A stretch of DNA of 64,000 bases, from the NCBI RefSeq assembly GCF_001548035.1, contig NZ_AP014723.1:1-64000 (forward strand), given 5' to 3'. The notes below the pieces were generated by a model. It had not been told where the DNA came from. It ran no database searches and saw nothing but the letters and a program-made list of their open reading frames with translations. Positions 21,202 through 34,921 of the stretch are shown piece by piece; position 1 is the stretch's first letter; each line of letters begins with the position of its first letter. Source of the DNA: Sulfurospirillum sp. UCH001. GTDB lineage: Bacteria > Campylobacterota > Campylobacteria > Campylobacterales > Sulfurospirillaceae. Made by a program: the position numbers and the translations under genes.

Positions 21202-21222
21202 TTTAAAATTTTATCCCCCCAA

Positions 21223-21242
21223 CCCCCTGAAGGGGGCTTTTT
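21223..21242 (+). terminator. Terminator after the relaxase gene
   Basis: CCCCC (21223-21227) pairs with GGGGG (21232-21236) around TGAA, followed by C and five T residues. Confidence 0.75.
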
Positions 21243-21330
21243 GACTTGAATGGGATGTTTTTATAGAAAAAAATTGGTTAAATATTTCGTGTCAAAGTAA
21301 TTCTAATAGGAGAAATCCTATCACACCTAT

Positions 21331-21591
21331 TTAGCTACTACAACAGCAACTACAATTTTCATTACTATTTTTACCTGAGTAGAGCTTAATTAAATTTTTA
21401 ATATCCTTTGAGCAACACTCACCAGATGGATTTAATTCTTTACAACTACTTCCAGTACAAGCTTTTGTTGATTCTTTGATTTTAGAAAGAGTGTTATTTC
21501 CTTTTTTAATGGCATCAACAATAGTTTTTTTATCAATTTCTATACAATAACACACTAATTCTGAATCATTAGCTTCCAACCAGTTTGTCAT
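21331..21591 (-). CDS. BFD-like [2Fe-2S] protein with Cys-rich tail
   Basis: An 86-residue protein with the BFD (bacterioferritin-associated ferredoxin) pattern: CYC near residues 14-16, then CTGSSC near 45-50, the four cysteines expected to hold a [2Fe-2S] cluster. Further cysteines occur in GECCSKD (about 58-59), and the C-terminus ends in CSCCCSS, an unusual tail that could bind extra metal. A good AAAGGA site precedes the ATG. It sits between the relaxase gene and an IS remnant, on the opposite strand, with no partner gene in sight. A role in iron handling or electron transfer is family-level inference. Confidence 0.75.
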   Translation of the reverse strand: MTNWLEANDSELVCYCIEIDKKTIVDAIKKGNNTLSKIKESTKACTGSSCKELNPSGECCSKDIKNLIKLYSGKNSNENCSCCCSS

Positions 21592-21633
21592 ATCAAAAGT
21601 CCTTTAAATGCTTTTGTCACATTATATCATCAC

Positions 21634-21919
21634 TTAAATTTTAAGCTCATTATTAAGCCTCCCTTCAAAGAATATTGCAAGTTGAGAAAGTGTCAAGCTC
21701 CAATTCCAAACAGGCATAGTCCATTTTTTTTCAGCATCTTTTATGCCCATATAAAGCAATTTGAGTAGTGAATTCTCATTTGGAAAAGCACCTTTTGGTT
21801 TTTGTTAGCTTACGAAACTGACGATGCACTGATTCAATAATATTGGTGGTGTAAATAACTTTTCTTATTTCTGGTGGATATTTGAAATAAACAGAGAGAT
21901 TTTCCCATTTATTCTGGGG
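21634..21919 (-). pseudogene. IS256-family (Mutator-type) transposase, 3' remnant with frameshift
   Basis: Translated on the minus strand, the segment gives ENLSVYFKYPPEIRKVIYTTN, then IIESVHRQFRKLTKTK, continued in a second frame by GAFPNENSLLKLLYMGIKD and MPVWNWSLTLSQLAIFFEGRL with a TAA stop at 21636-21634. This is the C-terminal end of an IS256-family transposase. One extra A in the AAAA run near 21793-21796 shifts the frame. The N-terminal two thirds, with the first catalytic aspartates, are missing. The break lies by base 21920, next to the 22-bp inverted repeat. Confidence 0.85.
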
Positions 21920-21927
21920 ACTGTTAG

Positions 21928-22211
21928 AAATATTTACTTATACTCTTTTCGTTATATCAACATTGTAGTATTTATAAAACAAGTCAAAAAAGATTTTAAC
22001 ATAGAATATAAAACCTCATTAAACACTCAAAAACAATGAAAAAACACTAAAAGAAATGTTTGACAATACAAAACATCAAAAAACAAAAAGTTGTCATAGA
22101 AAACGCTTTATTTTATTCTTTTTCTTTTTAGCGCGTAATTTTTTCTTTTTCTTTCGTGTGTGTTTGTATTCTACAAGTTTTAGATAACAAAAAGAGTATA
22201 AGTAAATATTT
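21928..22211. repeat. 284-bp segment bounded by perfect 22-bp inverted repeats
   Basis: Bases 21928-21949 (AAATATTTACTTATACTC + TTTT) are the exact reverse complement of 22190-22211. The enclosed 240 bases are very AT-rich and hold no credible gene. The layout resembles a MITE-like non-autonomous element or a recombination/replication site of the parent plasmid. Flanking bases (GTTAG left, TTTTC right) show no obvious target duplication. Confidence 0.7.
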
Positions 22212-22389
22212 TTTCAAAAATTTATAATCTAAAAACATTTTTACTTCAATAACTTTTAAAACTAAATTTTTTAAGCAAAAAAAAGATTTTTCTAAAGCTA
22301 AATTTTCATTAAAGCAAATTCAAAAAATCAACCAAAAGAAACAGTTTCAAGAAAAAAAATTTCGTACAACTAGTGAGTATAAATATTAT

Positions 22390-22525
22390 TTATTATATTC
22401 ACGAAGTGAATGTAATAAATTATAATTATAGTGATAGTTTACCTCTCTCGGATGTAGTTTATATATGAGTATTTACTAGTATATAAACTACATAGTTAAT
22501 AAAATATATTATTATTTTATTAACT
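22390..22525. repeat. Array of three successive 13-bp hairpins
   Basis: Hairpin 1 at 22390-22418 pairs TTATTATATTCAC with GTGAATGTAATAA around GAA (one T-G pair). Hairpin 2 pairs 22452-22464 with 22481-22493 (ATGTAGTTTATAT / ATATAAACTACAT) around 16 bases. Hairpin 3 directly abuts it and pairs 22494-22506 with 22513-22525 (AGTTAATAAAATA / TATTTTATTAACT) around 6 bases. The array ends 18 bases from the stop of the truncated recombinase. No gene is seen in the rest of 22212-22543. Confidence 0.7.
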
Positions 22526-22543
22526 ATTGTGACAGACTAAGTT

Positions 22544-22858
22544 TTACAATGTAAAGGTTATTTGACTTATACAATCTACTAGTTTTTGTATATTGATTTT
22601 ATTTTTGTTATAAATGGTATGTGTTATATCTCCTTTAAAACTGTGTCCCATCAAATATTTTTTGGTTTTCTCGTCTCCATTTGTATTTAATTCAATTTCT
22701 TGACTGAAATTTTTTCTAAAAGAGTGAAAACTTTTATTTTCTTCATTAATAATTTTTTTTAGTCTATTATTTGTTCTTTTACCAGCATTTTTGACTTCGT
22801 TTTCTTTCTCATAATCAAAAAATAAGTATTTGTATTTACTGTGTTTCGTTTGATATTT
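22544..22858 (-). pseudogene. Tyrosine recombinase (integrase), C-terminal fragment cut by an IS element
   Basis: The reading frame (open to 22885, where the first nine codons come from the IS end) encodes the C-terminal catalytic part of a tyrosine recombinase. It has the HxxR pair in FHSFRKNF, a second histidine in YLMGHSF and the nucleophilic tyrosine in HTIYNKNK, in the expected order. The N-terminal arm-binding and core-binding domains and the first catalytic arginine are absent; the IS3-family element begins at the break. No matching N-terminal part is found on the far side of the IS, which implies a deletion. The protein should be inactive, so the island is probably locked in place. 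Confidence 0.8.
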
Positions 22859-22886
22859 GGAATGACCCCACATTTGTAGACACACT

Positions 22887-23729
22887 CTAATTCTGCGAAG
22901 CCATATTTAATTTCTCATTATATCTTTTTTCAAATTCATTGGGCGAAATATAACCAAGATAGCTATGCCTTCTGGTTGAATTATAAAACATTTCAATGTA
23001 ATAAAATATGTCTGATTGTGCTTCCTCTCGTGTAATATAAATCTGTTTTTTGACACATTCACGCTTAAATGTTTTAAAAAAGCTTTCAGCCACTGCATTA
23101 TCATAACAGTTGCCTCGCCTGCTCATGCTAGGAATCAGGTTGTATTTTTTTAGGAGTGCTTGCCACTCGTAAGAGCTATACTGTGATCCTTGATCAGAGT
23201 GTACAATAACTTCATGATGTGGTTTTTGTCTAAAGGTTGCCATTTCCAGAGCTTTTAGAGCTAACTGTGTTGTCATGCGATGACTTGTTGCCCATCCAGC
23301 AACTTTTCTACTGAAAAGGTCTAATACAACCGCTAAATAAAACCATCCTTCATGTGTTTTGATATAGGTTATATCTGTTACCCATGTGTGATTTGGCTCT
23401 TGAACATTGAAACACTGCCCAAGATGGTTAGGAGGTGCCAAATGTCTCTGCCCTTTTTTATAACGAGGTTTTTTCTGTTTGACACCTGCACCAAAGAGTT
23501 TGGCTATGTTCATAAGTCTTGCGACTCTTTTTTTATTCACACTGATACCTGATGCTATAAGATCTTTGGTAACAGTTCGATATCCATAGATACGACCACT
23601 GTGTTCATAAGCCTCTTTAATGTGTTGCAAGACCACTTTATTATCTCTATCACGTTTTGATTCTGGTTGTTTATTCCATGCATAATAACCACTAAAATGG
23701 ACTTGCAAAGCTTTGCACATTCTTCGCAC
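22887..23729 (-). CDS. IS3-family transposase OrfB (DDE catalytic subunit)
   Basis: The 280-residue product carries the HTH_21 region (IKEAYEHSGRIYGYRTV), then the rve integrase core with the DDE triad: D in WVTDITYIKT, D in VIVHSDQGSQYSS and E in DNAVAESFFKTFK. It is probably made as an OrfAB fusion by -1 frameshifting at AAAAAAG on the minus strand (23807-23801), since the frame is open upstream of its first ATG to that site. Length and motifs are complete, so the element could still be active. Confidence 0.93.
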   Translation of the reverse strand: MRRMCKALQVHFSGYYAWNKQPESKRDRDNKVVLQHIKEAYEHSGRIYGYRTVTKDLIASGISVNKKRVARLMNIAKLFGAGVKQKKPRYKKGQRHLAPPNHLGQCFNVQEPNHTWVTDITYIKTHEGWFYLAVVLDLFSRKVAGWATSHRMTTQLALKALEMATFRQKPHHEVIVHSDQGSQYSSYEWQALLKKYNLIPSMSRRGNCYDNAVAESFFKTFKRECVKKQIYITREEAQSDIFYYIEMFYNSTRRHSYLGYISPNEFEKRYNEKLNMASQN

Positions 23730-23767
23730 GGGATAAAATGGCTTATACTCTTTAATGAAGGCGTACT

Positions 23768-24052
23768 TTACTTTTGATTCTTGGCAAAGTACGCTGCGGC
23801 CTTTTTTAGAATGTCACGCTCCTCGGTGACTCTTTTTAATTCTGCTTTGAGCTTCCTATTCTCGGATGATAAATCTTTGGAAGCTTGGTGTTGTGAGGTA
23901 CTTTGAGGATTACTATAGATTTTTATCCATGCTTTGAGTGAATCAGGATGCACTCCTAATCTTTGTGCGGTATCTTTAATGGGATAGCCATTTTTTACAA
24001 TTTGATTGACTGCCTCTTGTTTGAACTCGTCTGTGTATAGTTTATTTGCCAT
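23768..24052 (-). CDS. IS3-family transposase OrfA (helix-turn-helix subunit)
   Basis: A 94-residue DNA-binding protein with a helix-turn-helix (KQEAVNQIVKNGYPIKDTAQRLGVHPDSLKAW) and a C-terminal leucine-zipper helix (ENRKLKAELKRVTEERDILKKA). It recognises the IS ends and dimerises. AGGAG precedes its ATG. The codons CTA-AAA-AAG near its 3' end contain the A-AAA-AAG slippery site that gives the OrfAB transposase. Confidence 0.93.
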   Translation of the reverse strand: MANKLYTDEFKQEAVNQIVKNGYPIKDTAQRLGVHPDSLKAWIKIYSNPQSTSQHQASKDLSSENRKLKAELKRVTEERDILKKAAAYFAKNQK

Positions 24053-24207
24053 GGAATTACTTTCTCCTCTTGATGTTTCATGTGGTCATTATCGACCGTA
24101 TTAACAGTTTCAAGAGTGTCTAGTGTTGTGGGGTCATTCCACATATATATGTGATTAAACTTAAGTTGCAGAATGTTATCATCGTCCAAAAAAGGATGGT
24201 GATAATT

Positions 24208-25059
24208 ATGAAAGTTATAGGTATCGACCCTGCTCCTTCTAAAAAAACTGTTATTTATAATGATATTGATGGATTCACTGAAATAGAAGCTGATAAGTTA
24301 AAAAAGTATCTTGATGATGAATTTAAAAATTCAGAAGAAGATATATTAATATGCTGGGATGCGCCTTTAACAGGAGGAAAGCCAATTAATTTTAATCAGA
24401 AAATAGAAAAATATAACCCGTTCTATCAAAGAAAAATAGAACAGTTGATTAATGCCACCGTTCAAGTTAAAGGGATATCCACTATGGGCTATGCTGGGTG
24501 TCCTCATTGGTCAATTACTCAATATTGCTTAGGGCTTCCACAAATATTTCAGCCAGAGGTTCCTCAATCTAATTTGCCATTTCAGCTTATCACCGAACAG
24601 CTTACGATAAAGCAGAAAAAATCTCTAAAAGGCAAATATGTTATTGAAGTTCACCCTGCCCTTGCTTTATGGCTTTGGTTAAAAGAAAACAATAAAGCTA
24701 AAACGGAATTTGACTGGGATTATAAAGAAAATAAAGAAACATTCAATATATTGGTTAGACAATTACTTGACAAGTTCGAAAAACCACAAGCTGTAACGGA
24801 ATCCACAAATCAGGCAAATGCAAAATATAAAGTTGAAGTTACTGTAATTAAAGATGAAAACGAATCTGTAAAAGAAAAAACGATGACTGATGACCATCTT
24901 GATGCTTATATCGCATGGTTATTAGGAACTTTATGGTTAAAAATAGAAAATGAAGTATTGTTAGTAGGCAATAAAAATACGGGCGCAATGCTACTACCTA
25001 CCGACAAGAAAGAAGAAGTTAGTAAAAAATGGCAATCCGAGTTAGAAGAATATAAATAA
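24208..25059 (+). CDS. DUF429-like protein (predicted RNase H-like fold)
   Basis: A 283-residue soluble protein resembling the DUF429 family. It begins VIGIDPAPSKKT, continues with ICWDAPLTGG (about residue 48) and VIEVHPALALW, and closes with TDDHLDAYIAWLLG near 230; the acidic residues in these blocks are conserved in the family and sit where RNase H-like folds bind metal. Biochemical activity is not established. ATG 24208 follows AAAGGA (24191-24196). A longer frame opens upstream but starts next to the IS end. It is 36 bases before a HAD-type phosphatase gene, probably in one operon, inside an accessory region. Confidence 0.6.
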   Translation: MKVIGIDPAPSKKTVIYNDIDGFTEIEADKLKKYLDDEFKNSEEDILICWDAPLTGGKPINFNQKIEKYNPFYQRKIEQLINATVQVKGISTMGYAGCPHWSITQYCLGLPQIFQPEVPQSNLPFQLITEQLTIKQKKSLKGKYVIEVHPALALWLWLKENNKAKTEFDWDYKENKETFNILVRQLLDKFEKPQAVTESTNQANAKYKVEVTVIKDENESVKEKTMTDDHLDAYIAWLLGTLWLKIENEVLLVGNKNTGAMLLPTDKKEEVSKKWQSELEEYK

Positions 25060-25095
25060 AAATTAACACTAACTTTAAATATACATGAGGTCAAA

Positions 25096-25983
25096 ATGTC
25101 CAACATTATAGCTATCATATTTGATTTTGATATTACGCTGTCCCCAAAGTTCCAGCAAGAAGTTATCTTTGATGATTGGGGTGTCGAGGCAAAAATATTT
25201 TGGGAAGAAAGTGCCCAAAAGATTGCTCAAGGGTATGATATGGAGCATGCTTATTTAAAAACTTTCATTGATTATGGGAAACGAGACCCAAAGTATGCAC
25301 TTAATAATCAAACGCTATACAAATACGGTAAAAAAGTCAATCTTTACGATGGCTTGAGCCGAAGAAATGGCAGTCATTCTATCTTTGATGATTTGCAGAT
25401 GATTGTTGAGCAAGAAGAGCACAAAGAAAAGAACATCAAGTTAGAGTATTACTGCATTAGTGGTGGCATTACCGAGATGATTCAAGGTGCTTTTGATGAA
25501 CACAATTTGAGTGACCACTTTAAAGAGATATTTGCATGTTCCCTTGATGAAGATGAGCATGGAAAGTTGGCATATATCAAAGAGACTGTTGGTCATACCA
25601 TCAAGACACAAAAGCTTTACATGATCGCAAAGGGTGTTTCACCTAAAAGAGGGGATAACCCATCTAAGGTTAATGAAGTGAGCAAAAATCTTCGTATTCC
25701 TTTTGAAAATATGATCTTCCTTGGAGATGGACAAACCGATATACCTGCTTTTTCCCTTATCAATAAAAGTGGTGGAACATCTATAGCGGTTTACCGTGAA
25801 ATCAAACGCGCTGATGGCACGATAGATGAACAAGCAACCATGAAACCATACAACGAAGGGTATCATTTGGCGATAGAATCTAAAAGAGCAGAACAACTTC
25901 TTCCAGCGGATTACTCAGCAGGGAAACCACTCAAAATGGCTCTCTTGAGCTATGTAGAGAAAATGGCTAAAAGGATAAATTGA
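25096..25983 (+). CDS. HAD-superfamily phosphatase
   Basis: The 295-residue protein shows HAD motif I as FDFDITLS (about 9-16, nucleophile D10 and D12), motif II as CISGG (about 117), and motif IV as FLGDGQTDIPAFS (about 212-224), with a lysine between them for motif III. The motif IV wording resembles phosphoserine phosphatase-like haloacid dehalogenases. The long cap insert includes TFIDYGKRDPK. GAGGT precedes the ATG. It is cotranscribed with the DUF429-like gene. The substrate is unknown. Confidence 0.82.
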   Translation: MSNIIAIIFDFDITLSPKFQQEVIFDDWGVEAKIFWEESAQKIAQGYDMEHAYLKTFIDYGKRDPKYALNNQTLYKYGKKVNLYDGLSRRNGSHSIFDDLQMIVEQEEHKEKNIKLEYYCISGGITEMIQGAFDEHNLSDHFKEIFACSLDEDEHGKLAYIKETVGHTIKTQKLYMIAKGVSPKRGDNPSKVNEVSKNLRIPFENMIFLGDGQTDIPAFSLINKSGGTSIAVYREIKRADGTIDEQATMKPYNEGYHLAIESKRAEQLLPADYSAGKPLKMALLSYVEKMAKRIN

Positions 25984-26041
25984 AGACAAAAGTCATCTTT
26001 CTCTCGTAAAATAATTAATCTCAAATTCCTTCATAATAGGA

Positions 26042-26069
26042 AAAGCTACTCAAAATAATGGGTAGCTTT
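26042..26069 (+). terminator. Weak terminator hairpin after the HAD gene
   Basis: AAAGCTACT (26042-26050) pairs with GGTAGCTTT (26061-26069, one T-G pair) around 10 bases; a loose T-rich stretch follows. The rest of the gap to 26193 is AT-rich leader. Confidence 0.5.
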
Positions 26070-26193
26070 GTTACATTTTTCATTAAAAAATCAAAAAATC
26101 ACCTTTTACTATTAACAAAATCACATCTTGGCTTTTTATATATATGTATAGAAATCAATTTCTATGCCCAGAATCTAAATGAAGGACAATACT

Positions 26194-26520
26194 ATGCCGT
26201 TTAAAATTTTAGAGCAAGAGTTAATCAAAGAAATCAAACATATTCAACAGCTCTTTAGAAAAGAAGCAATGGGTGAAATTTCAATTGATACGCTAGCTAA
26301 AAATGAACTTGTAGAAATCGAAGCAACTTTACAGAATCGACTAGAAGAATTAAAAAGATCCTCTTCAAATGCATGCATCGTTGGAGATTTTACATTAGAA
26401 GAAATTGCTAAAACGATGGGTATAACACGTGAAAGAGTACGCCAGATTGAAACATCTGCTATTAAAAAGATTAAAAATCCAAAAATAGGTAGAAAACTCA
26501 AAACTTATTTAGAGATATAG
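26194..26520 (+). CDS. Small protein with sigma-70 region 4-like helix-turn-helix
   Basis: The 108-residue protein has a helical N-terminal half and a C-terminal helix-turn-helix that reads like sigma factor region 4: FTLEEIAKTMGITRERVRQIETSAIKKIKNP (about 72-102), with the ERVRQIE signature. It lacks sigma region 2, so it is more likely a DNA-binding regulator or a sigma mimic than a full sigma factor. AAGGA at 26182-26186 fits ATG 26194 (MPFKILEQ); the ATG at 26179 is too early. A divergent paralogue follows 35 bases downstream. Confidence 0.75.
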   Translation: MPFKILEQELIKEIKHIQQLFRKEAMGEISIDTLAKNELVEIEATLQNRLEELKRSSSNACIVGDFTLEEIAKTMGITRERVRQIETSAIKKIKNPKIGRKLKTYLEI

Positions 26521-26555
26521 CAATTTTTCATAAAACAGAAATCACGGAGAGCACC

Positions 26556-26936
26556 ATGCCATTGCAAATTTTTGAGCAGGCGTTATTCAAAGAAATTATG
26601 CATATTAACGGTCTTATAGGGAAAAGACTAATAGGTGAAATTTCAATTGAGGATAAAGCTAGAAATGAGCTTTTAGAGATAAGAATAACTTTGCAAAAGC
26701 AAATGAAAAAATCAAAAAGATATTCAGAAAATATGCGATCAGAAGGTGATTTTACACGAGAGGAAATGGTTAAAATACTGAAAATCATGAGAGAAATAAT
26801 ATGCACAATTGAAATATCGTCAATCAAACAAATCATAGAGGGGACAACACGCTACACAGATTACTCTAAAGCTAGCGGTAAAACTATGAAACACCTAAAA
26901 AGAAATAAGGTATGGATACCATACTCAGAAGATTAA
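26556..26936 (+). CDS. Paralogue of the sigma-region-4-like protein, with decayed HTH
   Basis: This 126-residue protein shares the N-terminal pattern of its neighbour (MPLQIFEQALFKEIMHI against MPFKILEQELIKEIKHI, then GEISIE...ARNELLEI), so the two arose by tandem duplication. The helix-turn-helix has diverged: FTREEMVKILKIMREIICTIEISSIKQI replaces the ERVRQIE signature, so DNA binding by that motif may be lost. The C-terminal 30 residues are basic and unrelated. GGAG precedes the ATG. The function is unknown. Confidence 0.65.
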   Translation: MPLQIFEQALFKEIMHINGLIGKRLIGEISIEDKARNELLEIRITLQKQMKKSKRYSENMRSEGDFTREEMVKILKIMREIICTIEISSIKQIIEGTTRYTDYSKASGKTMKHLKRNKVWIPYSED

Positions 26937-26967
26937 AAATTTTTGATTAAAGCTTGGGAGAAAAAGT

Positions 26968-27579
26968 ATGCACGAACTAATAGAACAAATTAATTTCAAG
27001 CTTGAACAGCATGCAGTTTCAACGGTGCTAAAACAACTCGGTTATCATGTGATTTCAAAAGGAATATCCAAGTTGAATTCGTTGTTGAGATGTAGCACAC
27101 TGCAAACCTGGCTCGCCTCAGCACATTATGATTATGTACATACAAACAGAACATTTCTTGTGGTACTATGTGAGATTTTATCGATTGAAAAGCACTATTA
27201 TGAGCCTTTATTAAATGCCATACAACAGTTAGAAGCTATGAAAACACCCTATCTCTTCATGGAGACGTACTTTAAAAGGGTGAATGAACCACTCTTTGTA
27301 TTGGCATTAATGGATGCAAAGCGTCGTATGATGTTGCCCAAAGAAGCTTTTCTCAATCAATCGAAAGAAAGTATTGAAGCCTATGTGGCACACCATATCA
27401 AAGAGCATTATGCGATGACACAAGGCTATCTTGCAATGTGGGGGAAAATTCATCTTTATATCCTTTTCCATCCCGATGGGAAAAAGCATATTTTCAATAT
27501 CCATGGAAACTTATTGGCAGTGGAAACATACAGTGAAGAAAGCGAAGCATTTTTGAGACTTCATAACTACACTTTCTAA
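26968..27579 (+). CDS. Conserved-looking protein of unknown function
   Basis: A 203-residue soluble protein with no domain I recognise. It is rich in His, Tyr and Leu, and most of it looks helical (for example FLVVLCEILSIEKHYYEPLLNAIQQLEAM). No signal peptide or long membrane segment is seen. GGGAG at 26954-26958 lies 9 bases before the ATG. It is 31 bases after the sigma-like paralogue and 64 bases before tRNA-Ser, so it may be the last gene of the accessory block or the first chromosomal gene. Confidence 0.6.
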   Translation: MHELIEQINFKLEQHAVSTVLKQLGYHVISKGISKLNSLLRCSTLQTWLASAHYDYVHTNRTFLVVLCEILSIEKHYYEPLLNAIQQLEAMKTPYLFMETYFKRVNEPLFVLALMDAKRRMMLPKEAFLNQSKESIEAYVAHHIKEHYAMTQGYLAMWGKIHLYILFHPDGKKHIFNIHGNLLAVETYSEESEAFLRLHNYTF

Positions 27580-27643
27580 CTATTTTAGTGTAGTACAATC
27601 ACACTTTAAGCCATTTTTGACTAAAATCGCCTTCTACAAAAGT

Positions 27644-27731
27644 GGGCAGATGTCCGAGCGGTTGAAGGAGCACGCCTGGAACGCGTGTAAGGTGCAAGCC
27701 TTCGGGGGTTCGAATCCCCCTCTGTCCGCCA
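27644..27731 (+). tRNA. tRNA-Ser (anticodon GGA)
   Basis: An 88-nt class II tRNA: acceptor GGGCAGA (27644-27650) pairs with TCTGTCC (27721-27727) with one G-U pair, then discriminator G and encoded CCA. The anticodon stem CACGC/GCGTG encloses CTGGAAC with anticodon GGA (27678-27680), reading UCC and UCU. A long variable arm and the T-arm GGGGGTTCGAATCCCCC are present. The 3' end is duplicated in inverted orientation at 19280-19299. Confidence 0.96.
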
Positions 27732-27792: not shown

Positions 27793-29436
27793 CTACTTTA
27801 ATATTTGTTTGATGTAATCAGCAACACGGAATGCATTCGCATAAATAGTCCATGTGTAAGGAACACTTCCTCCTGTTGGCATAAAACTACCATCTGTTAC
27901 AAAAAGGTTAGAAATATCATGGCTTTGGCAATAACGATTAAGCACATGTTTTTTAGGGTTATCTCCAAAGCGGCATCCTCCTGCTTGAAGATTTTGAGAT
28001 GGTAACGGAGAGATTGTGTATGATATATTTTTGGCACCCATCTGCTCAAGTAGTCTTACAGCTTTTGTCGCTAAAAATTCTCCTACTCTGACATCTTCTG
28101 GATGAGCCCCTATTCGTATATTTGCAACTGGGATTCCATATTTATCTTTATATTTCTCATCAACGGATACAAAACAGTTATCATTAGGCATCCAATCATT
28201 AAATATTTCAAAATTAAGAACTCTTTTTGTTGTAAATGTTTGATAGATTTTATCTTGAAGCTTTTGTCCAAAGATTAATTTATCATTTTCCCATTTCAAG
28301 CTATTGGCACGTCGAATTGGATTAGAATGCTCAAATAAAAAATCAATCAATCCGCCTTTAAATTTTGGCGTGAAATACCAATCTTTTAAAGCACGATTCA
28401 CGAAAAGCCCTGATTGTAAAAGAACTTCTTGACTAAAATGGCTCAAATCAAATTCCCCAGACCCCATGCCTCCGCCTGAAAAGAGAAGATTTTTCCCAAC
28501 AGCTCCTGAAGAATTGGCTAACCCGTTCGGAAATGCTGCATTTTTGGAATTTAACAGCAAACGTGAACTCTCGACCGCTTGTGCTGCAAGGATAAAGAGC
28601 TTTGCTTTTATCTCTTTTTGAGTACCTTCTTTTGTAAGATAGAGTGCTTTCTTTACCTTTTGCGTATGATCTGTTTCCAATTTTACGACAAATGCATTTG
28701 CTATAATATGTAAATTCCCTGTGGCTAAAGCAGGCTGAATTAAAGCAGCTCTTGAGCTTCCTTTTGCACCACTTGAACATGCATAAGAACCGCAATAGTT
28801 AGAATAGTAACAGGGATTTCGATTCTCTTTAGATTCTGACAGAATAGCTCTTGGTGTCATGAAAGGGGTAAAATTTAAAGCTTTACATGCCGTGTCAAAT
28901 TTTTCAACAATTGGGTGTTCTGCCAAAGGAGGATATGGATATGTGTTAGTGCTTCTTGGTTCTTGATGAACATGTTCGGTAACATGCCCTGAAACACCAA
29001 CAATTTTTTCTACTAAATCATAGTAAGGTTCAATCTCTTCATAACTTATAGGCCAATCTTCAATGTTAGCTCCATCATACATGCCATAAATAGATTTCAA
29101 CTTAAAGTCATTTGGTTTCAAACGATGAAAAAAGCCACTCATAAAGTTGGAGGATCCTCCCAAAAGACTACCATTCCAAAAATTCCAATTATTTTCATAA
29201 GTAGGTGTTTTTATCCATTTTCCCTCTTCCAACGTTTCAATCGTATGGTATTCATCGCTTAGTTGTGGCGTAAAAATATTTCGTTTCGTATAAGCGATTT
29301 CATCCTTTGAAAAATCTTGTTCGCTATAAATATCGCCCTTTTCAAGAATAACCACTTTTTTTCCAGCATGCGAAAGTTCATAAGCAAGTGGCCCAGCTCC
29401 AGCTCCACTACCTATAATACAAATATCATAATTCAT
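27793..29436 (-). CDS. GMC-family FAD-dependent oxidoreductase (gluconate 2-dehydrogenase flavoprotein-like)
   Basis: A 547-residue flavoprotein with the FAD-binding dinucleotide fold at its N-terminus (IIGSGAGAGPLAYELSHAG, about 6-24, then ILEKGD) and the GMC C-terminal block (LFVTDGSFMPTGGSVPYTWTI, about 509-529). This matches the large subunit of membrane-bound sugar/polyol dehydrogenases. The upstream gene encodes the subunit-3-like partner and overlaps by four bases (ATGA), as in gluconate 2-dehydrogenase operons. No cytochrome c subunit is present, so the electron acceptor is unclear. No own signal peptide is seen; it could be exported together with the Tat-type partner. The substrate is unknown. 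Confidence 0.85.
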   Translation of the reverse strand: MNYDICIIGSGAGAGPLAYELSHAGKKVVILEKGDIYSEQDFSKDEIAYTKRNIFTPQLSDEYHTIETLEEGKWIKTPTYENNWNFWNGSLLGGSSNFMSGFFHRLKPNDFKLKSIYGMYDGANIEDWPISYEEIEPYYDLVEKIVGVSGHVTEHVHQEPRSTNTYPYPPLAEHPIVEKFDTACKALNFTPFMTPRAILSESKENRNPCYYSNYCGSYACSSGAKGSSRAALIQPALATGNLHIIANAFVVKLETDHTQKVKKALYLTKEGTQKEIKAKLFILAAQAVESSRLLLNSKNAAFPNGLANSSGAVGKNLLFSGGGMGSGEFDLSHFSQEVLLQSGLFVNRALKDWYFTPKFKGGLIDFLFEHSNPIRRANSLKWENDKLIFGQKLQDKIYQTFTTKRVLNFEIFNDWMPNDNCFVSVDEKYKDKYGIPVANIRIGAHPEDVRVGEFLATKAVRLLEQMGAKNISYTISPLPSQNLQAGGCRFGDNPKKHVLNRYCQSHDISNLFVTDGSFMPTGGSVPYTWTIYANAFRVADYIKQILK

Positions 29437-29930
29437 ATTTTTCTTCCATATTTATTTATGGGACGAGGATTTCCCGTGGTATGCAAGGTTGAAGTCCACC
29501 CTAACTCATGAGTATTTCCTCCATATATAGGGTCACTAAACATAGCTTCAATCGTATAATAAATAAGTTTTGATAACCATTTTTCTAAGAAATCACTTTC
29601 AGTTGCTATTTCTAAAATTTTATTTTTAGATTCAGTGTCTTTATGCGAGAAATCTGGAAAATTTTGATGAAACATAGAAGCTCCTTTTATTAGGAAGTCT
29701 AAATCATTTGCATCAAAATACTCAGATGAACAGTTCGATACCAAATAAAAAAGTGCGTTGATATCTTGTGCAGATGGCATGTGTTCAGTTTTGGGTAATA
29801 AAGTGTCTTGAACACTTGCAATAGTTTTCCATGCATGCGTAGGAATTTCTTTAGCTTGCATATTGATTCTCAAAAATACAGGTGATGTAGCAATAAGTGC
29901 TATAAAGGTTCGTCTCTTCATACCGAACAT
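29433..29930 (-). CDS. Gluconate 2-dehydrogenase subunit 3-like protein with Tat-type signal
   Basis: The 165-residue protein begins MFGMKRRTFIALIATSPVFL, a twin-arginine signal-like sequence (KRRTFIA) followed by a hydrophobic stretch. The rest matches the small third subunit of gluconate 2-dehydrogenase-type enzymes (for example WKTIASVQDTLLPKTEHMPSA and FSDPIYGGNTHELGW). In these enzymes it carries or guides the flavoprotein across the membrane. It overlaps the GMC gene start by four bases. The start could be the first Met or Met4. It is divergent from the HvfA-like gene. Confidence 0.82.
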   Translation of the reverse strand: MFGMKRRTFIALIATSPVFLRINMQAKEIPTHAWKTIASVQDTLLPKTEHMPSAQDINALFYLVSNCSSEYFDANDLDFLIKGASMFHQNFPDFSHKDTESKNKILEIATESDFLEKWLSKLIYYTIEAMFSDPIYGGNTHELGWTSTLHTTGNPRPINKYGRKI

Positions 29931-30033
29931 TCTAACACACTCTTGTAAAACGTTTGTGTAATAAAACTACATAATCACTACACAAAAAATCATTATACTT
30001 TCACTATCCAAAACCCAATAAAAGGAGATTTTC

Positions 30034-30270
30034 ATGAAAGTATTTTCTGGAGTTAAGCCTCTTGTAGCATTATTAGTAGCTACAATGTTTGTAAGTGGTG
30101 CTATGGCAGCTGATGGTAAATGTGGAGGTGACATGAACTCTACTAAAGACTCAAAAGAGATGAAAAAACCTGCTGATGCAAAGTGTGGTGGTGATAAGAT
30201 GTCTGCTGATGCGAAAAAACCTGCTGATGCAAAATGTGGTGCTGCTAAGTGCGGTGGAGAAAAAAAATAA
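30034..30270 (+). CDS. HvfA-like exported Cys-rich peptide
   Basis: A 78-residue low-complexity protein: a signal peptide (1-25, ending AMA) and a mature part built from KCGG-type units. The four cysteines are C30, C51, C68 and C73, and KKPADAKCG occurs twice (44-52, 61-69). This resembles HvfA/bufferin precursors, whose KCG cysteines are converted by MNIO enzymes into copper-binding oxazolone/thioamide groups. No MNIO (HvfB) or HvfC gene is in the window, so modification is unproven; the peptide might bind metal unmodified. AAAGGAG precedes the ATG. A DoxX gene follows after 6 bases, as in hvf operons. Confidence 0.7.
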   Translation: MKVFSGVKPLVALLVATMFVSGAMAADGKCGGDMNSTKDSKEMKKPADAKCGGDKMSADAKKPADAKCGAAKCGGEKK

Positions 30271-30276
30271 TTTAAA

Positions 30277-30687
30277 ATGAATATGGTTAATATTCAACAA
30301 TCGAGTATTTTGCTAGGTGTACGATTCGCATTGGCATATGGATTTTATGAACCAGCAATACGAAAACTAGAAGATATTCAATCAGTTGCCGATTGGTTTA
30401 GTACACTTGGTATACCATTATCTTCACCCATGGCTTATATCACGGTAGGTACTGAAACCTTAGGTATTATTTTGTTAACTTTGGGATTATTTACAAGGTG
30501 GATTTCATTACCCCTAAGTGTTATTATGATTGTTGCAATCATTACTGTACACCTGCCTAATGGTTTTAGTGCAGCAGATGGAGGTTATGAAATTCCTCTT
30601 TACTATCTAATTTTTCTTGGCATACTCAGTTCCTTTGGTGCGGGAAAAATCAGCTTAGATTACTTCTTTGCCGAAAGAAGGAAATAA
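30277..30687 (+). CDS. DoxX-family membrane protein (HvfD-like position)
   Basis: The 136-residue protein has about four hydrophobic segments and the DoxX fold pattern: LLGVRFALAYGFYEPAIRKL at the N-terminus, VGTETLGIILLTLGLFTRW, then HLPNGFSAADGGYEIPLYYL. DoxX proteins recur next to HvfA-type or DUF2282-type peptides and in oxidative stress loci. It is 6 bases after the HvfA-like gene, so one transcript is likely. The 11-bp inverted repeat after it could terminate that transcript or control the next operon. Confidence 0.82.
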   Translation: MNMVNIQQSSILLGVRFALAYGFYEPAIRKLEDIQSVADWFSTLGIPLSSPMAYITVGTETLGIILLTLGLFTRWISLPLSVIMIVAIITVHLPNGFSAADGGYEIPLYYLIFLGILSSFGAGKISLDYFFAERRK

Positions 30688-30695
30688 ACTTCATC

Positions 30696-30725
30696 TATAC
30701 CATAGCTTCTTGAGGCTATGGTATA
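30696..30725. promoter_or_regulatory. Perfect 11-bp inverted repeat overlapping the -10 of the two-component operon
   Basis: TATACCATAGC (30696-30706) is the exact reverse complement of GCTATGGTATA (30715-30725), with an 8-base spacer. The right arm runs into TATAAT at 30722-30727, a strong -10 box 26 bases before the response regulator start. It could be an operator for autoregulation or a weak terminator of the doxX transcript. Confidence 0.6.
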
Positions 30726-30752
30726 ATTGGTACAATAACCAAAGGGTATTTG

Positions 30753-31409
30753 ATGAAAATTTTATTACTAGAAGATGATCCTATTTTATCTGATATTCTG
30801 CTTTGTCATTTGAATAAACATATGCATCAAACAACTCATTTCAATGATGGACAACTTGCTTGTAATACACTAAACGATCAAAAATTTGACCTTTTGATTC
30901 TTGACATTAATGTTCCAAAATTAAGTGGTATCGACCTTCTTAAAGAAATTCGTACCTATCAAAACAATACTCCTGCCATTGTTATAACTGCATTTCAAGA
31001 TACCGCTCATTTAAAAAAAAGTTTTGAAAATGGGTGTGATGACTATATTAAAAAACCATTTGATCTTGAAGAGCTTGATTTAAGAATTAAAAATATTCAA
31101 AAACGGTTTCATATTGTCAATGAAGAAGCTATAAAATTAGACGATAATATTTTGCTAATCGTTTCTAAAAATCGCTTGTTTGTAGATGAAATATCCTACA
31201 CACTCACGCGTAAAGAGTGTAAAATTTTACTTTATCTGTGTAATCAAAAAGGGAAAGTCATTTCTTCAGAAGAACTCATCCAAAATTTATGGGATTACCA
31301 TGAAATGCCCAGTGAAGCTACCATTAGAGTCTATATTAAAAATTTACGCAATATTTTAGGCAAAGAAAAAATTCAAACCGTTAGAGGGAATGGATATATT
31401 TTTGAATAG
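30753..31409 (+). CDS. OmpR-family response regulator
   Basis: The 218-residue protein has a receiver domain (acidic pocket EDD near 7-9, phospho-acceptor D51 in LDINVPKLSG, K101 in IKKPFD) and a C-terminal winged helix ending [12 protein letters not shown], typical of OmpR/PhoB regulators. ATG 30753 follows AAAGGG (30741-30746); an in-frame TTG lies one codon earlier. The kinase gene overlaps its 3' end by 20 bases. The pair sits between the HvfA/DoxX genes and msrP, so it may sense periplasmic oxidant or copper, as E. coli HprRS does next to msrPQ. That role is inference. Confidence 0.92.
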   Translation: MKILLLEDDPILSDILLCHLNKHMHQTTHFNDGQLACNTLNDQKFDLLILDINVPKLSGIDLLKEIRTYQNNTPAIVITAFQDTAHLKKSFENGCDDYIKKPFDLEELDLRIKNIQKRFHIVNEEAIKLDDNILLIVSKNRLFVDEISYTLTRKECKILLYLCNQKGKVISSEELIQNLWDYHEMPSEATIRVYIKNLRNILGKEKIQTVRGNGYIFE

Positions 31410-32538
31410 AGAAGAACTTAAAGCATTATTGGGATTTTTAATCATTTATACATCTTCAGCACTTATTCTCATGATTATTATTGCCATTTTATATCACAAT
31501 AATGAAACAAATAAAATTCACGAAAAACGTACGATGGAAATTAAAACTGTCATCATGAGCTACGAGAAAGAGCTTATGCAAGCAGAAATGGATAAAGTAC
31601 CTTATGAATTTCATCCACCAAAAGACTTTTTTAATGTCGTATTGCTAGATAAGGGGAAAAAACCTCTTTTTTCAAATGTAAATAGTCAAATTTCTGATTT
31701 GGATACTGCGCGTTACACTTTTCACGAGCTATCAAGTCCTATCAATGAAGTCGCCTATATTGTTGTCGATGAAAAAAAGAGTGAACAAGAAATATTCAAA
31801 TTAAATTTTATTATTGCCTTAAGTATTTTGATATCTTCTATTTTTGTTGGTATTGAGGGTTATTTTTTAAGTCGATTTTTGCTTAAGCCTGTTCATTCGC
31901 GTATTGACAAACTCAATAAATTCATCAAAGATAGTTCACATGAACTCAATACTCCTATAGCTGCTTTGATGATGAGCGTCTCAAATCTCAAACAAAGTTC
32001 TTTTCCAGATAGGCGCGTTATTAATCATATTTCTATTAGTACGAAACTCATTTCGCAGATTTACAATAGCTTAAGTTATATTGCTTTTAACGATATTGAC
32101 GAAGTATTTGAAGAATCATTTGATCTTGCTCTTTTAATTCAAGAAAGCGTTAGCTACTTCAACGAGATAGCCGCAACAAAAGAAAATACGATTACTGCGC
32201 AACTTCAAACAACATTTATTCATATAGATAAGTCTCGTATTCAAAAAGTCATTCATAATCTTTTATCAAATGCTATCAAATACAGTTATCCTAAAACAAC
32301 CATTTCCGTTAAACTTTCTGAGCATCTTTTAACGGTTACCAATAAGGGTATAGGCATTAGCGAAGAAAATAAAAAAAACATTTTCAAGCGTTTTGAACGA
32401 AGGAGTACTACTGTTGGAGGTTTCGGAATAGGATTGGACATTGTTAATTCTGTGTGTGAAATGTATCACATTAAAGTTTGGATTGAATCTATTCCAAATA
32501 AGGAAACGACCTTTTATTTGCAGTTTCCTAACGTATAA
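31390..32538 (+). CDS. Sensor histidine kinase
   Basis: A 382-residue membrane kinase with two membrane segments (about 12-34 and 137-159) around a periplasmic domain of about 100 residues. A HisKA dimerisation domain (H-box [12 protein letters not shown], about 178) follows, then the ATPase domain with N-box [18 protein letters not shown] and GFGIGLDI. The ATG overlaps the regulator gene by 20 bases; an in-frame TTG at 31402 is an alternative start. It precedes msrP by 20 bases, so regulator, kinase and msrP appear to form one operon. The periplasmic domain has no cysteine, so sensing by thiol oxidation is unlikely; methionines are present. Confidence 0.9.
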
Positions 32539-32558
32539 ATACTTATATAGGTACTATT

Positions 32559-33494
32559 ATGAAGATTTCACGTATTGCTAATATCACCCCTGAAGCTCTT
32601 TTTGAAGCACGTCGCTATTTTTTAAAATTAGGTGCGGGCGCACTGGTGAGCAGTAGTGCCATTTCCAACCTTTTAGCAGACCTACCACAAGAAGCGAATC
32701 TAAACTATACCCCTGATGCAAACCCGCAGAAACTCACCCTTAACACGTTTGAGCAAGCCAGTAACTATGTCAACTTTTACGAGTTTTCTACGGACAAAGG
32801 TGCCCCCGTCAAACTCTCCCAAAAGATGAAGACTAACCCTTGGAATGTTCGCTTAGGCGGTGAGATAAAAACCGCACAATCTCTTGATGTGGAAGAGTTC
32901 ATCGCCAAGTTTGGACTTGAAGAGCGCATCTATCGTTTTCGCTGTGTCGAGGGTTGGTCGATGGTTGTACCTTGGATAGGCTTTCCTCTTTATAAACTCT
33001 TAGATTATCTTGAGCCAAACAGCAACGCCAAGTACGTGAAGTTTACCACACGCTACGACCCTGCGATGTTTCCAGACCAAGCCAAAGGCATCTTCTCAGC
33101 CATCAAATACCCCTATGTTGAAGGCTTACGCATGGATGAAGCACGCCATCCTCTTACGTTCATCGCTGTTGGCATGTATGGCAAGCGACTACTTCCTCAA
33201 AATGGCGCACCCATTCGTCTTGTTGTACCGTGGAAATATGGCTTTAAGTCTATCAAGTCGCTCGAGCTCATTGAGTGCGTTGAAAAAGAGCCACTCAACA
33301 CATGGCAAGAACAAAACCCCAAAGAATACGGCTTTTATGCTAATGTCAATCCGCAAGTTGACCACCCAAGATGGACACAAGCCAAAGAGCGCTTACTCGG
33401 CAAACTCACGAAACAAGATACCTTGATGTTCAATGGGTACGAAAAAGAGGTCGCCTCACTGTATGCAGGCATGGACTTAAGGAAATTCTTTTGA
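32559..33494 (+). CDS. msrP: Protein-methionine-sulfoxide reductase catalytic subunit MsrP
   Basis: MsrP is a periplasmic molybdopterin enzyme that repairs oxidised methionine in envelope proteins after damage by HOCl and other oxidants. The 311-residue protein has a Tat signal ([19 protein letters not shown] at 18-19), the Mo-binding cysteine C129 in [15 protein letters not shown], and long identity with E. coli MsrP, including [27 protein letters not shown] and [16 protein letters not shown]. The membrane cytochrome partner MsrQ is not encoded next to it. Codon use is richer in G and C than the neighbours, which may reflect separate origin or high expression. Confidence 0.95.
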
Positions 33495-33805
33495 AATTCT
33501 TGCTTCATCATGATAAATTTATTGATTACTATAGATACTTTCACAACAGCGCTAATTGATGAGATTATTAATCATCACCTCCAATAATTTTTCTATGCTA
33601 ACCTTGTGCTAATAAAATTTTCCATATATAGCTTGTTATGTAGAGTATTGGATGATAATTCAGTTAAATGAAGAAGGTATATGGCGAGATATGTGAAGAT
33701 GTGTCGTGATGGCACATCGCCTGTTCCAGGCGACTGGATTAAACCACTCTCCCATCTGCCCATTTTGGATAGGACTGGAAGTATAACGATTTTGTGCTTA
33801 TTGGA
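33495..33805. other. Intergenic stretch after msrP
   Basis: About 310 bases with no convincing gene apart from the small open frame listed separately. The first half is AT-rich and featureless. The second half is richer in G and C (the segment around 33705-33775), unlike the surrounding spacer, and may be remnant coding DNA. Confidence 0.5.
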
Positions 33806-33812
33806 GGATTAA
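33681..33812 (+). CDS. Possible 43-residue small protein or gene remnant
   Basis: The frame encodes MARYVKMCRDGTSPVPGDWI followed by KPLSHLPILDRTGSITILCLLED. AAGAAGG lies just upstream (33671-33677) but only 3 bases before the ATG. Composition differs from the adjacent spacer, with GC-rich codons. It overlaps the hairpin at 33806-33837. It could be a short gene or the debris of a larger one. I recognise no family. Confidence 0.25.
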   Translation: MARYVKMCRDGTSPVPGDWIKPLSHLPILDRTGSITILCLLED

Positions 33813-33837
33813 TGGCTTTTGCTAGAGCCACTAATCC
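33806..33837. terminator. Hairpin between msrP region and the chemoreceptor gene
   Basis: GGATTAATGGCT (33806-33817) pairs with AGCCACTAATCC (33826-33837) with one mismatch and an 8-base loop. It lies 8 bases past the chemoreceptor stop and could terminate both convergent transcripts, although the T-runs are weak. Confidence 0.5.
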
Positions 33838-33844
33838 TTTCCTC

Positions 33845-34921
33845 TTAAGATTTTCGTATCGCTTTGAAGCCTTCTATCAGTTTTTCAAAGCCTACTTTAC
33901 TGGAATGTTCTACATTTCTAAAGGTTTGGACACCATCGTGTGGATTTCCATTATTGGCAAAAATATCAATGGCTTTTTTGAGACCTTCATGCACTTTCAC
34001 ATGATGTTCACTTACTTCATTGACAACACTTGGGTTTAGTCTTTGGCTAACGTTCGAGAACCATTTTCCAAAGCGGCAAGCGGTGTGCCCTAAAATGTCG
34101 GACTGTTTGCGTGCTAAAGCAGCGTTATAGCCTCTGAGTTTGAGTAAGATATGGTCGATTTTTCCATTGCTTACAGAGATTTCATTGGTGACATTGTCAC
34201 ACTTGTTGGTGATGCTGGTTGAGTTAGCAAGCATTGCCTGGATTTCATTTGAAAAAGTGCCAAGTGTTGACATAGAGTTTTGTGACTCTTTTTGGAATGT
34301 CTCACTGGTGTCTGCCATCGAATTGGTATTTTGTTTTAGAATGCTGATGTTAGATTCCACTTCTAGGGTTGCTTTTTGTGTGCGTTCAGCAAGCTTTCGC
34401 ACTTCATCCGCAACAACGGCAAAACCTCGTCCATGTTCTCCTGCACGTGCTGCTTCGATAGCCGCATTGAGTGCTAAAAGATTGGTTTGGTCAGAAATGT
34501 CTTTAATCAGATTGATGATGTCACTAATAGCTGAAACACTGCTGGAGAGATTTTCAACATCGTGTGTAAACTTTTGAGTGAGTTCTTGGATTTTTTCCAA
34601 AGAAGTGATGATCTCTTTTGTCTGATTTTCAACATTTTGACCTCTTTGCATAGAGCTACTGTTAAGTGTATTGATCTCGTTGAGCATGGTTAATCCCTCT
34701 TCGACAGTATATTGCAAAAAGTTCATTCCATCTTCGTAGCTGTTTAGAAGAATACTGAGTAATTCTTCTTTGGTTTGATCTATAGACGTTTCTTGAGACT
34801 CTTGTGTTATGCGTAGGTTTGTATTTTGAAGTTCTTCATTGTAGTCTTTGAGCTTTTGTAATTCATGTTTAAGTGCTTGATTTTCACTTTCTAGCTCTGC
34901 TATACGTTTTCCGCCAAACAT
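33845..34921 (-). CDS. Cytoplasmic chemoreceptor with C-terminal CZB domain (TlpD-like)
   Basis: A 358-residue methyl-accepting protein without membrane segments. The N-terminus is a coiled coil (1-50), the signalling tip is [20 protein letters not shown] with [16 protein letters not shown] (about 144-180), and the C-terminus carries a CZB zinc-binding domain: HTACRFGKW (H279, C282) with further candidate ligands H257, H306/H307 and H311. This is the architecture of Helicobacter pylori TlpD, which responds to reactive oxygen species and HOCl through the zinc-bound cysteine. Its position beside msrP, which repairs HOCl damage, fits an oxidant-taxis role. That role is inferred. Confidence 0.88.

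Follow-up and report, generated by a model that had tools for sequence, protein, structure and literature searches.

The first 64,000 nucleotides of the Sulfurospirillum sp. UCH001 contig NZ_AP014723.1 (hereafter the window, from a complete, Sulfurospirillum-type genome of 2.6 Mb in a single contig) encode an exported, HvfA-like peptide with KCG motifs, followed by a DoxX protein, a two-component system and the methionine sulfoxide reductase MsrP, and faced by a divergent flavoprotein pair. KCG-type exported cysteine-rich peptides are usually modified by the iron enzyme MNIO; here the genome has no MNIO, and the locus holds a GMC flavoprotein with a Gluconate_2-dh3 partner instead. The features of the locus are as follows.

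27793..29436, minus strand: GMC flavoprotein, alpha-subunit-like, no signal peptide (PF00732/PF05199); keeps C209, C215 and C220 and lacks the dehydrogenase His/Asn
29433..29930, minus strand: Gluconate_2-dh3 protein, gamma-subunit-like, with a KRRTFI signal resembling those of twin-arginine translocation (Tat) substrates (PF13618, 31.3 bits, over the cut-off); homologues have RR motifs
29967..29984, plus strand: tandem direct-repeat box CTACATA-N4-CTACACA, 11-bp period, a proposed response-regulator site
29994-29999: -10 hexamer TATACT of the KCG promoter
30034..30270, plus strand: KCG peptide, HvfA-like, exported, Sec-type signal (KCG repeat model NF050137, 21.2 bits against a cut-off of 19.5)
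30277..30687, plus strand: DoxX membrane protein of the HvfX family (NF050144, 109.8 bits against a cut-off of 80; PF07681)
30696..30725, plus strand: hairpin ATACCATAGC...GCTATGGTAT in the gap between peptide/DoxX and regulator
30750..31409, plus strand: OmpR/PhoB-type response regulator (PF00072 and PF00486)
31390..32538, plus strand: sensor histidine kinase, HisKA/HATPase (PF00512 and PF02518), with a periplasmic loop of about 100 amino acids
32559..33494, plus strand: MsrP with the Tat signal ARRYFLK (NF003767, 428.6 bits against a cut-off of 207)

The initial annotation, made from the letters of the window, had named six genes here, namely those of the peptide, DoxX, the regulator, the kinase and MsrP and that of a CZB chemoreceptor further downstream, and curated models together with Pfam profiles bear out the identity and position of every one. 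The gaps along the plus-strand array from peptide to msrP measure 6, 62, -20 and 20 nucleotides, short enough that one transcript starting at the peptide promoter and covering every gene up to and including msrP is plausible. The flavoprotein pair (27793-29930), divergent from this array and beyond the range that the annotation covered, was overlooked there; on our best reading it belongs to the same unit.

A search of the whole 2.6-Mb genome with the PF05114 profile found no MNIO, and the same search found one in 11 of 60 relatives. The annotation's remark that the usual MNIO is missing is thus correct for the entire genome and not for the locus alone, and an MNIO acting in trans was rejected on the same ground. 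No open reading frame for the DUF2063 partner (HvfC) lies among the genes of the locus, a genome-wide search for it not having been run. The full set is close at hand in relatives: KCG-MNIO-DUF2063 clusters with the same two-component system, mostly with DoxX as well, occur in six genomes of other genera in the family and in one member of the genus (G009). The flavoprotein pair shows the reverse distribution. Each of the genus's 11 KCG loci without MNIO carries a divergent Gluconate_2-dh3 and GMC gene, which makes this pair the most constant partner of the peptide, and the GMC gene is absent from the other 13 genus genomes searched. Among the KCG-positive members of a 61-genome set, 13 carry GMC but not MNIO, another 10 carry MNIO but not GMC, and no genome has the two together (Fisher p ~9e-7, kinship ignored). 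Our best reading of these distributions is that the GMC/Gluconate_2-dh3 pair replaced the MNIO/DUF2063 pair while the two-component system and its promoter box were retained.

The association extends across the order. In 199 genomes, GMC was found in 41, KCG in 40 and both in 26, against 8.2 expected. Twenty GMC loci were fetched from outside the genus; a KCG peptide is clear in half of them, a further locus has a Cys/Met-rich one, and more come from five of the shorter loci; a 254-kb control yielded none but the peptide of the window. At least five families have KCG-GMC cassettes, as KCG-DoxX-G2DH3-GMC operons (G2DH3 standing for Gluconate_2-dh3) in families f17 and f9 (loci L224 and L231) and in the divergent arrangement in families f6 and f7; within the fetched loci, neither MNIO nor DUF2063 was detected in the cassettes of f6, f7, f9 and f17.

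What kind of enzyme is the GMC protein? Its closest solved relatives are the large subunits of FAD-glucose dehydrogenase (6A2U) and fructose dehydrogenase. A structure model built with an alignment of 28 sequences (predicted local distance difference test, pLDDT, 83.5; predicted template modelling score, pTM, 0.88) superposes on 6A2U_B and the fructose dehydrogenase with a template modelling (TM) score of ~0.8. The gamma-alpha plan, the fold and the three Fe-S-type cysteines of those dehydrogenases are present, the cysteines in 26/26 aligned sequences; the catalytic His and Asn, in contrast, are replaced in all 26, within the stretches NLxAGGCRFG (with small variations) and GGSVPYTWT (with single variants), residues 520-524 of the model, near the Asn site, being of low confidence. 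The locus also differs from the known dehydrogenase complexes in its tie to KCG peptides and in that no cytochrome subunit was seen. The gene is under strong purifying selection, and we consider this GMC subfamily probably not to be a sugar dehydrogenase. In the FAD-glucose dehydrogenase family, piggyback export by a Tat-bearing gamma subunit is the established plan, and it fits here, with a Tat-like RR motif on the small partner and no signal on the GMC protein itself; Gluconate_2-dh3 thus probably carries the GMC protein out of the cytoplasm. In the C. jejuni literature, Cj0414/Cj0415 are reportedly named gluconate dehydrogenase.

The peptide passes the KCG repeat model and falls short of the equivalog model for HvfA (NF050188, 25.6 bits, cut-off 95). 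Its mature part has about four Cys and about four Met with one KCGxxKCG pair. Ratios of nonsynonymous to synonymous substitution rates (dN/dS) are ~0.03-0.17 in most MNIO-less pairs with measurable dS and 0.26-0.29 among the close copies of G014, G016 and G019; such purifying selection marks a real gene and excludes a chance reading frame. In most peptides of the genus, single KCG units replace the KCGxxKCG pairs, a change that we considered as proof of MNIO loss and dropped, since the GMC-linked peptides of other families keep their pairs. The comparison bears on known chemistry in that FonBC in vitro modified a two-repeat peptide and not a one-repeat peptide (PMC13097082). The Sec-exported KCG peptide and the HvfX-family DoxX are features shared with HvfABCX and Buf_EGKCG systems (oxazolin, fontiphorin), and in relatives the complete order KCG-MNIO-DUF2063-DoxX occurs together with this two-component system; the window departs from HvfABCX in its genome without MNIO, its locus without a DUF2063 partner, the GMC/Gluconate_2-dh3 genes found instead, and, in the genus, KCG units that are mostly single. 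PF00174 and ferric-reductase genes have been noted in a few Buf_EGKCG clusters (PMC12452194).

Peptide diversity elsewhere in the order deserves a brief record. A GMC-linked homologue in family f19 (L239, 4921-7421), directly upstream of Gluconate_2-dh3 and GMC, has a mature part with 32 Met and 8 Cys and recalls the Met-rich MrpX. Three loci (L226, L227 and L229) have a tandem pair of KCG peptides, of which one bears a Sec signal and the other resembles a lipoprotein. Additionally, a protein of ~583 amino acids with a PF01645 glutamate-synthase domain lies 3' of DoxX in L110, L104, L222, L223, L226 and L227, loci that span several families, in both MNIO and GMC contexts.

The MNIO-type and GMC-type loci share the tandem box CTACACA-N4-CTACACA, which stands with its 11-bp period ahead of the KCG gene in both. 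In loci whose tandem box adjoins the promoter, the -10 hexamer lies at a fixed 27 nucleotides from the first base of the box; in three genomes (G026, G027 and G031) a single repeat occupies the corresponding position with respect to the -10. Allowing at most two mismatches, we counted 52 boxes in loci totalling 616 kb, where Markov-shuffled sequence gave 1-4, an excess that overstates independence because these genes were the basis on which the loci were picked and many of the loci are kin; 36 of the 52 lie upstream of KCG, DoxX, Gluconate_2-dh3 or MsrP, and some loci have a box ahead of Gluconate_2-dh3. Within the 2.6-Mb genome of the window, the only exact match is at the KCG promoter, and one-mismatch matches are no more frequent than those of a reversed-pattern control. 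A sigma-70 scan of the region returned fewer sites than did shuffled sequences. Direct repeats with an 11-bp period are typical of OmpR/PhoB-type regulators, and we infer that the regulator of this array binds the box. The hairpin between peptide/DoxX and regulator folds in 6/6 genus loci, whether DoxX is present or absent, and may be an attenuator or a processing site that sets the ratio of peptide to two-component system.

Two relatives extend the reach of the box. In G100 it precedes msrP beside GMC; in G001 an exact copy lies ahead of a chlorite dismutase gene (PF06778) whose neighbour encodes an enzyme of the type II DMSO reductase family. The type II DMSO-reductase family includes (per)chlorate reductases. 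In the latter genome (L102, 3701-10168), next to the KCG/GMC block, the chlorite dismutase with its exact box and KCG-like signal peptide is followed by genes for type II DMSO-reductase-family alpha, beta and chaperone proteins, so that the region looks like a (per)chlorate-reduction island. A DUF302 protein in L096 (4942-5420), near the hvf-type operon of G026, has a two-mismatch box immediately upstream.

The best curated matches for regulator and kinase among the matches listed (PmrA and PorY) are far below their cut-offs. The regulator is 93-94% identical in G007 and G010, kinase orthologues occur in KCG loci both with and without MNIO, and no invariant Cys stands out in the periplasmic loop. 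Orthologues of the two-component system also occur in L112-L116 without an adjoining KCG peptide or MNIO, with a weak box near the regulator in L113. The window's msrP is the second copy of its genome, the paralogue (1683539-1684453) being 88% identical; the tree is weak, and a recent duplication of that core copy is unsupported. No msrQ adjoins msrP in the window, as the annotation had said, but MsrQ (PF01794) follows the paralogous msrP at 1.68 Mb, so that the notion of an MsrQ-free system was rejected. As to the annotation's analogy with E. coli HprRS as a sensor of hypochlorous acid (HOCl) and copper, HprSR was found to answer HOCl, copper induction of E. coli msrP depending on CusSR instead of HprSR (PMC9302797). 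The likeness to HprSR/CusSR with MsrPQ lies in an OmpR-type two-component system linked to msrP and in the envelope oxidant or copper response that we propose; the differences are the missing MsrQ at the locus, another box, and the additional peptide and flavoprotein.

How far does the unit reach, and does it move? The peptide, regulator and kinase travel together across the loci of relatives, and msrP or msrPQ adjoins the block in three or more arrangements. For example, MsrP lies 3' of the kinase in the window and in G003, G007, G010 and G022, MsrP with MsrQ lies 3' of GMC in G002 and G021, and in G026, of another genus, a KCG-MNIO-DUF2063-DoxX-RR-HK operon (RR, response regulator; HK, histidine kinase) stands tail to tail with msrPQ. 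The edges in the window are the following.

27644..27731, plus strand: tRNA-Ser(GGA), left edge and insertion hotspot, not a functional part (ARAGORN)
33680..33762, minus strand: degenerate tRNA-Ser-like sequence, right border of the block (aligned locally with the intact tRNA)
33845..34921, minus strand: soluble CZB chemoreceptor, core neighbour (PF13682, 35.7 bits against a cut-off of 29.4; PF00015)

Relatives have an intact tRNA-Ser where the window has the degenerate copy, and remnants of mobile DNA lie to the left of the block. The block genes are ~90% identical to those of G010, whose core neighbours reach only 74-77%, and G020, with a core 91-98% identical to that of the window, lacks the block. 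A near relative is found in S. cavolei UCH003. From this pattern it would appear that the block moved horizontally as a unit. The CZB receptor, a soluble methyl-accepting chemotaxis protein with a CZB domain like those of the TlpD class, had been counted as part of the joined system; it and two further neighbours adjoin tRNA-Ser(GGA) in most genus members examined, block-less ones included, and because it keeps this position without the block we reject it as a component and regard it as a core gene neighbouring the insertion site. The tRNA-Ser(GGA) hotspot itself (19606-27731 and 33680-33762) contains a mob-like protein, an IS3-type pair and a truncated tyrosine integrase, the last 83% identical to a longer integrase beside tRNA-Ser in G019.

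Bringing these observations together, we hypothesize a mobile envelope oxidant system under two-component control, in which an exported peptide acts as a thiol/thioether sink, MsrP carries out repair, and the GMC pair serves as a redox partner in place of MNIO maturation; we regard this reading as evenly poised between right and wrong. The kinase would respond to an oxidant in the envelope, with reactive chlorine or something similar as the likeliest signal and perhaps copper, and the regulator, by binding the tandem box, would switch on the Cys/Met peptide. DoxX, the two-component system and MsrP would be read from the peptide's array and the flavoprotein pair from the shared intergenic region. 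In the periplasm the peptide would scavenge oxidants, bind metal or do both, and MsrP would reduce oxidised methionines; the Tat-exported GMC/Gluconate_2-dh3 pair would handle the redox state of the peptide, where MNIO/DUF2063 maturation is cytoplasmic, and would feed or draw electrons together with DoxX. MsrP is known to maintain the methionines of copper proteins (PMC9302797), and in perchlorate islands a Met-rich MrpX with YedYZ reportedly detoxifies hypochlorite by cycling (PMC4623255). The locus resembles MrpX-YedYZ in combining an exported sulfur-rich peptide with an MsrP-type reductase, and a chlorite dismutase gene stands behind the shared box in one relative; the locus differs in its Cys-rich KCG peptide, in a two-component system rather than sigF/nrsF, and in the added DoxX and GMC pair. 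The annotation's grouping of peptide, regulator/kinase and, in several arrangements, MsrP is upheld by the two-component system and box that go with the peptide in relatives whether or not they have MNIO, and it fits oxidant stress in that the box precedes msrP or chlorite dismutase, in one genome each.

Several observations weigh against this hypothesis. DoxX adjoins the peptide in only 4/11 MNIO-less genus loci (it is missing in the other seven and thus no constant member, though part of the annotation's system) and MsrP is adjacent in 7/11; in nine of the 20 GMC loci fetched from other genera, no peptide of the KCG type lies nearby. The genome's other msrP has no preceding box, and the mirror half-site proposed for the GMC promoter is weak. 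Additionally, the genus loci descend from one or a few assemblies of the block, so that their counts are non-independent and the co-occurrence figures are unadjusted for phylogeny, and genome-wide absence of MNIO is established within the 61-genome set.

The rival explanations and the oxidant hypothesis are not fully exclusive. The pair might oxidise the KCG Cys (or Lys) after export to yield a modified metal-binding peptide, which would account for the exchange of MNIO/DUF2063 while peptide, two-component system and box stay, for recurrent KCG-DoxX-G2DH3-GMC operons with paired motifs, and for a GMC protein without sugar-dehydrogenase residues; yet most genus peptides have lost the paired motifs and keep GMC, so that the substrate motif is not fixed, and such flavin chemistry on peptides is not established here, and we think this rather unlikely. 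Slightly less likely still is an unmodified, bufferin-like copper buffer whose plain thiolates bind Cu(I), with a copper-sensing two-component system and with GMC, DoxX and MsrP keeping the ligands reduced. Kinship to HvfA/HvfX, a family in which the products of MNIO modification bind copper (PMC13097082, PMC13419390), and the copper control of E. coli MsrP (PMC9302797) speak for such a buffer, but the known copper ligands are 5-thiooxazoles that depend on the absent MNIO, a chlorite dismutase gene preceded by the box suggests chlorine oxidants, and the kinase loop offers no standout invariant Cys.

Were the pair an ordinary periplasmic alcohol or sugar dehydrogenase, in the manner of the gluconate dehydrogenase reported for C. 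jejuni, and a bystander to the peptide, its fold and subunit plan would be as expected; the loss of His and Asn in all 26 sequences, the KCG/DoxX linkage that recurs in five families and the boxes ahead of Gluconate_2-dh3 make this improbable. Hardly credible, finally, is a decaying MNIO cluster whose peptide is modified in trans or disused: MNIO and DUF2063 are gone, DoxX is lost in several loci and KCG pairs are fewer, but there is no MNIO in the genome to act in trans, peptide and GMC are under strong purifying selection, the box is conserved and the block moves as a unit. Going beyond the oxidant hypothesis, we offer only tentatively, and with more doubt than belief, the idea that across Campylobacterota the Tat-exported GMC/Gluconate_2-dh3 pair is a second enzyme, MNIO-independent and periplasmic, that matures KCG peptides (or cycles their redox state) and stands in for the cytoplasmic MNIO/DUF2063 pair within the same regulon.

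MNIO-less genomes have been met before: of 2583 Buf_EGKCG genomes, 67 are without MNIO, and whether their peptides are modified elsewhere or left unmodified was kept open (PMC12452194). GMC proteins are unmentioned in the main text of that study, as are KCG/GMC-type genes in the main text of a Nitratiruptor copper study, and neither a KCG-GMC link nor a Sulfurospirillum-MNIO link was found in the literature searched, an absence that is no proof of novelty. The pairing of KCG peptide, GMC flavoprotein and MsrP, recurrent across Campylobacterota, is in this sense apparently undescribed. With a genome that has no MNIO, a peptide that is nevertheless under selection, a specific and recurrent replacement partner and a shared box, the question of MNIO-less peptides becomes directly testable. 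The locus suggests that KCG peptides linked to DoxX have a thiooxazole-independent role, links these peptides through MsrP and chlorite dismutase to defence against reactive chlorine, and singles out a subfamily of GMC flavoproteins that are probably no sugar dehydrogenases.

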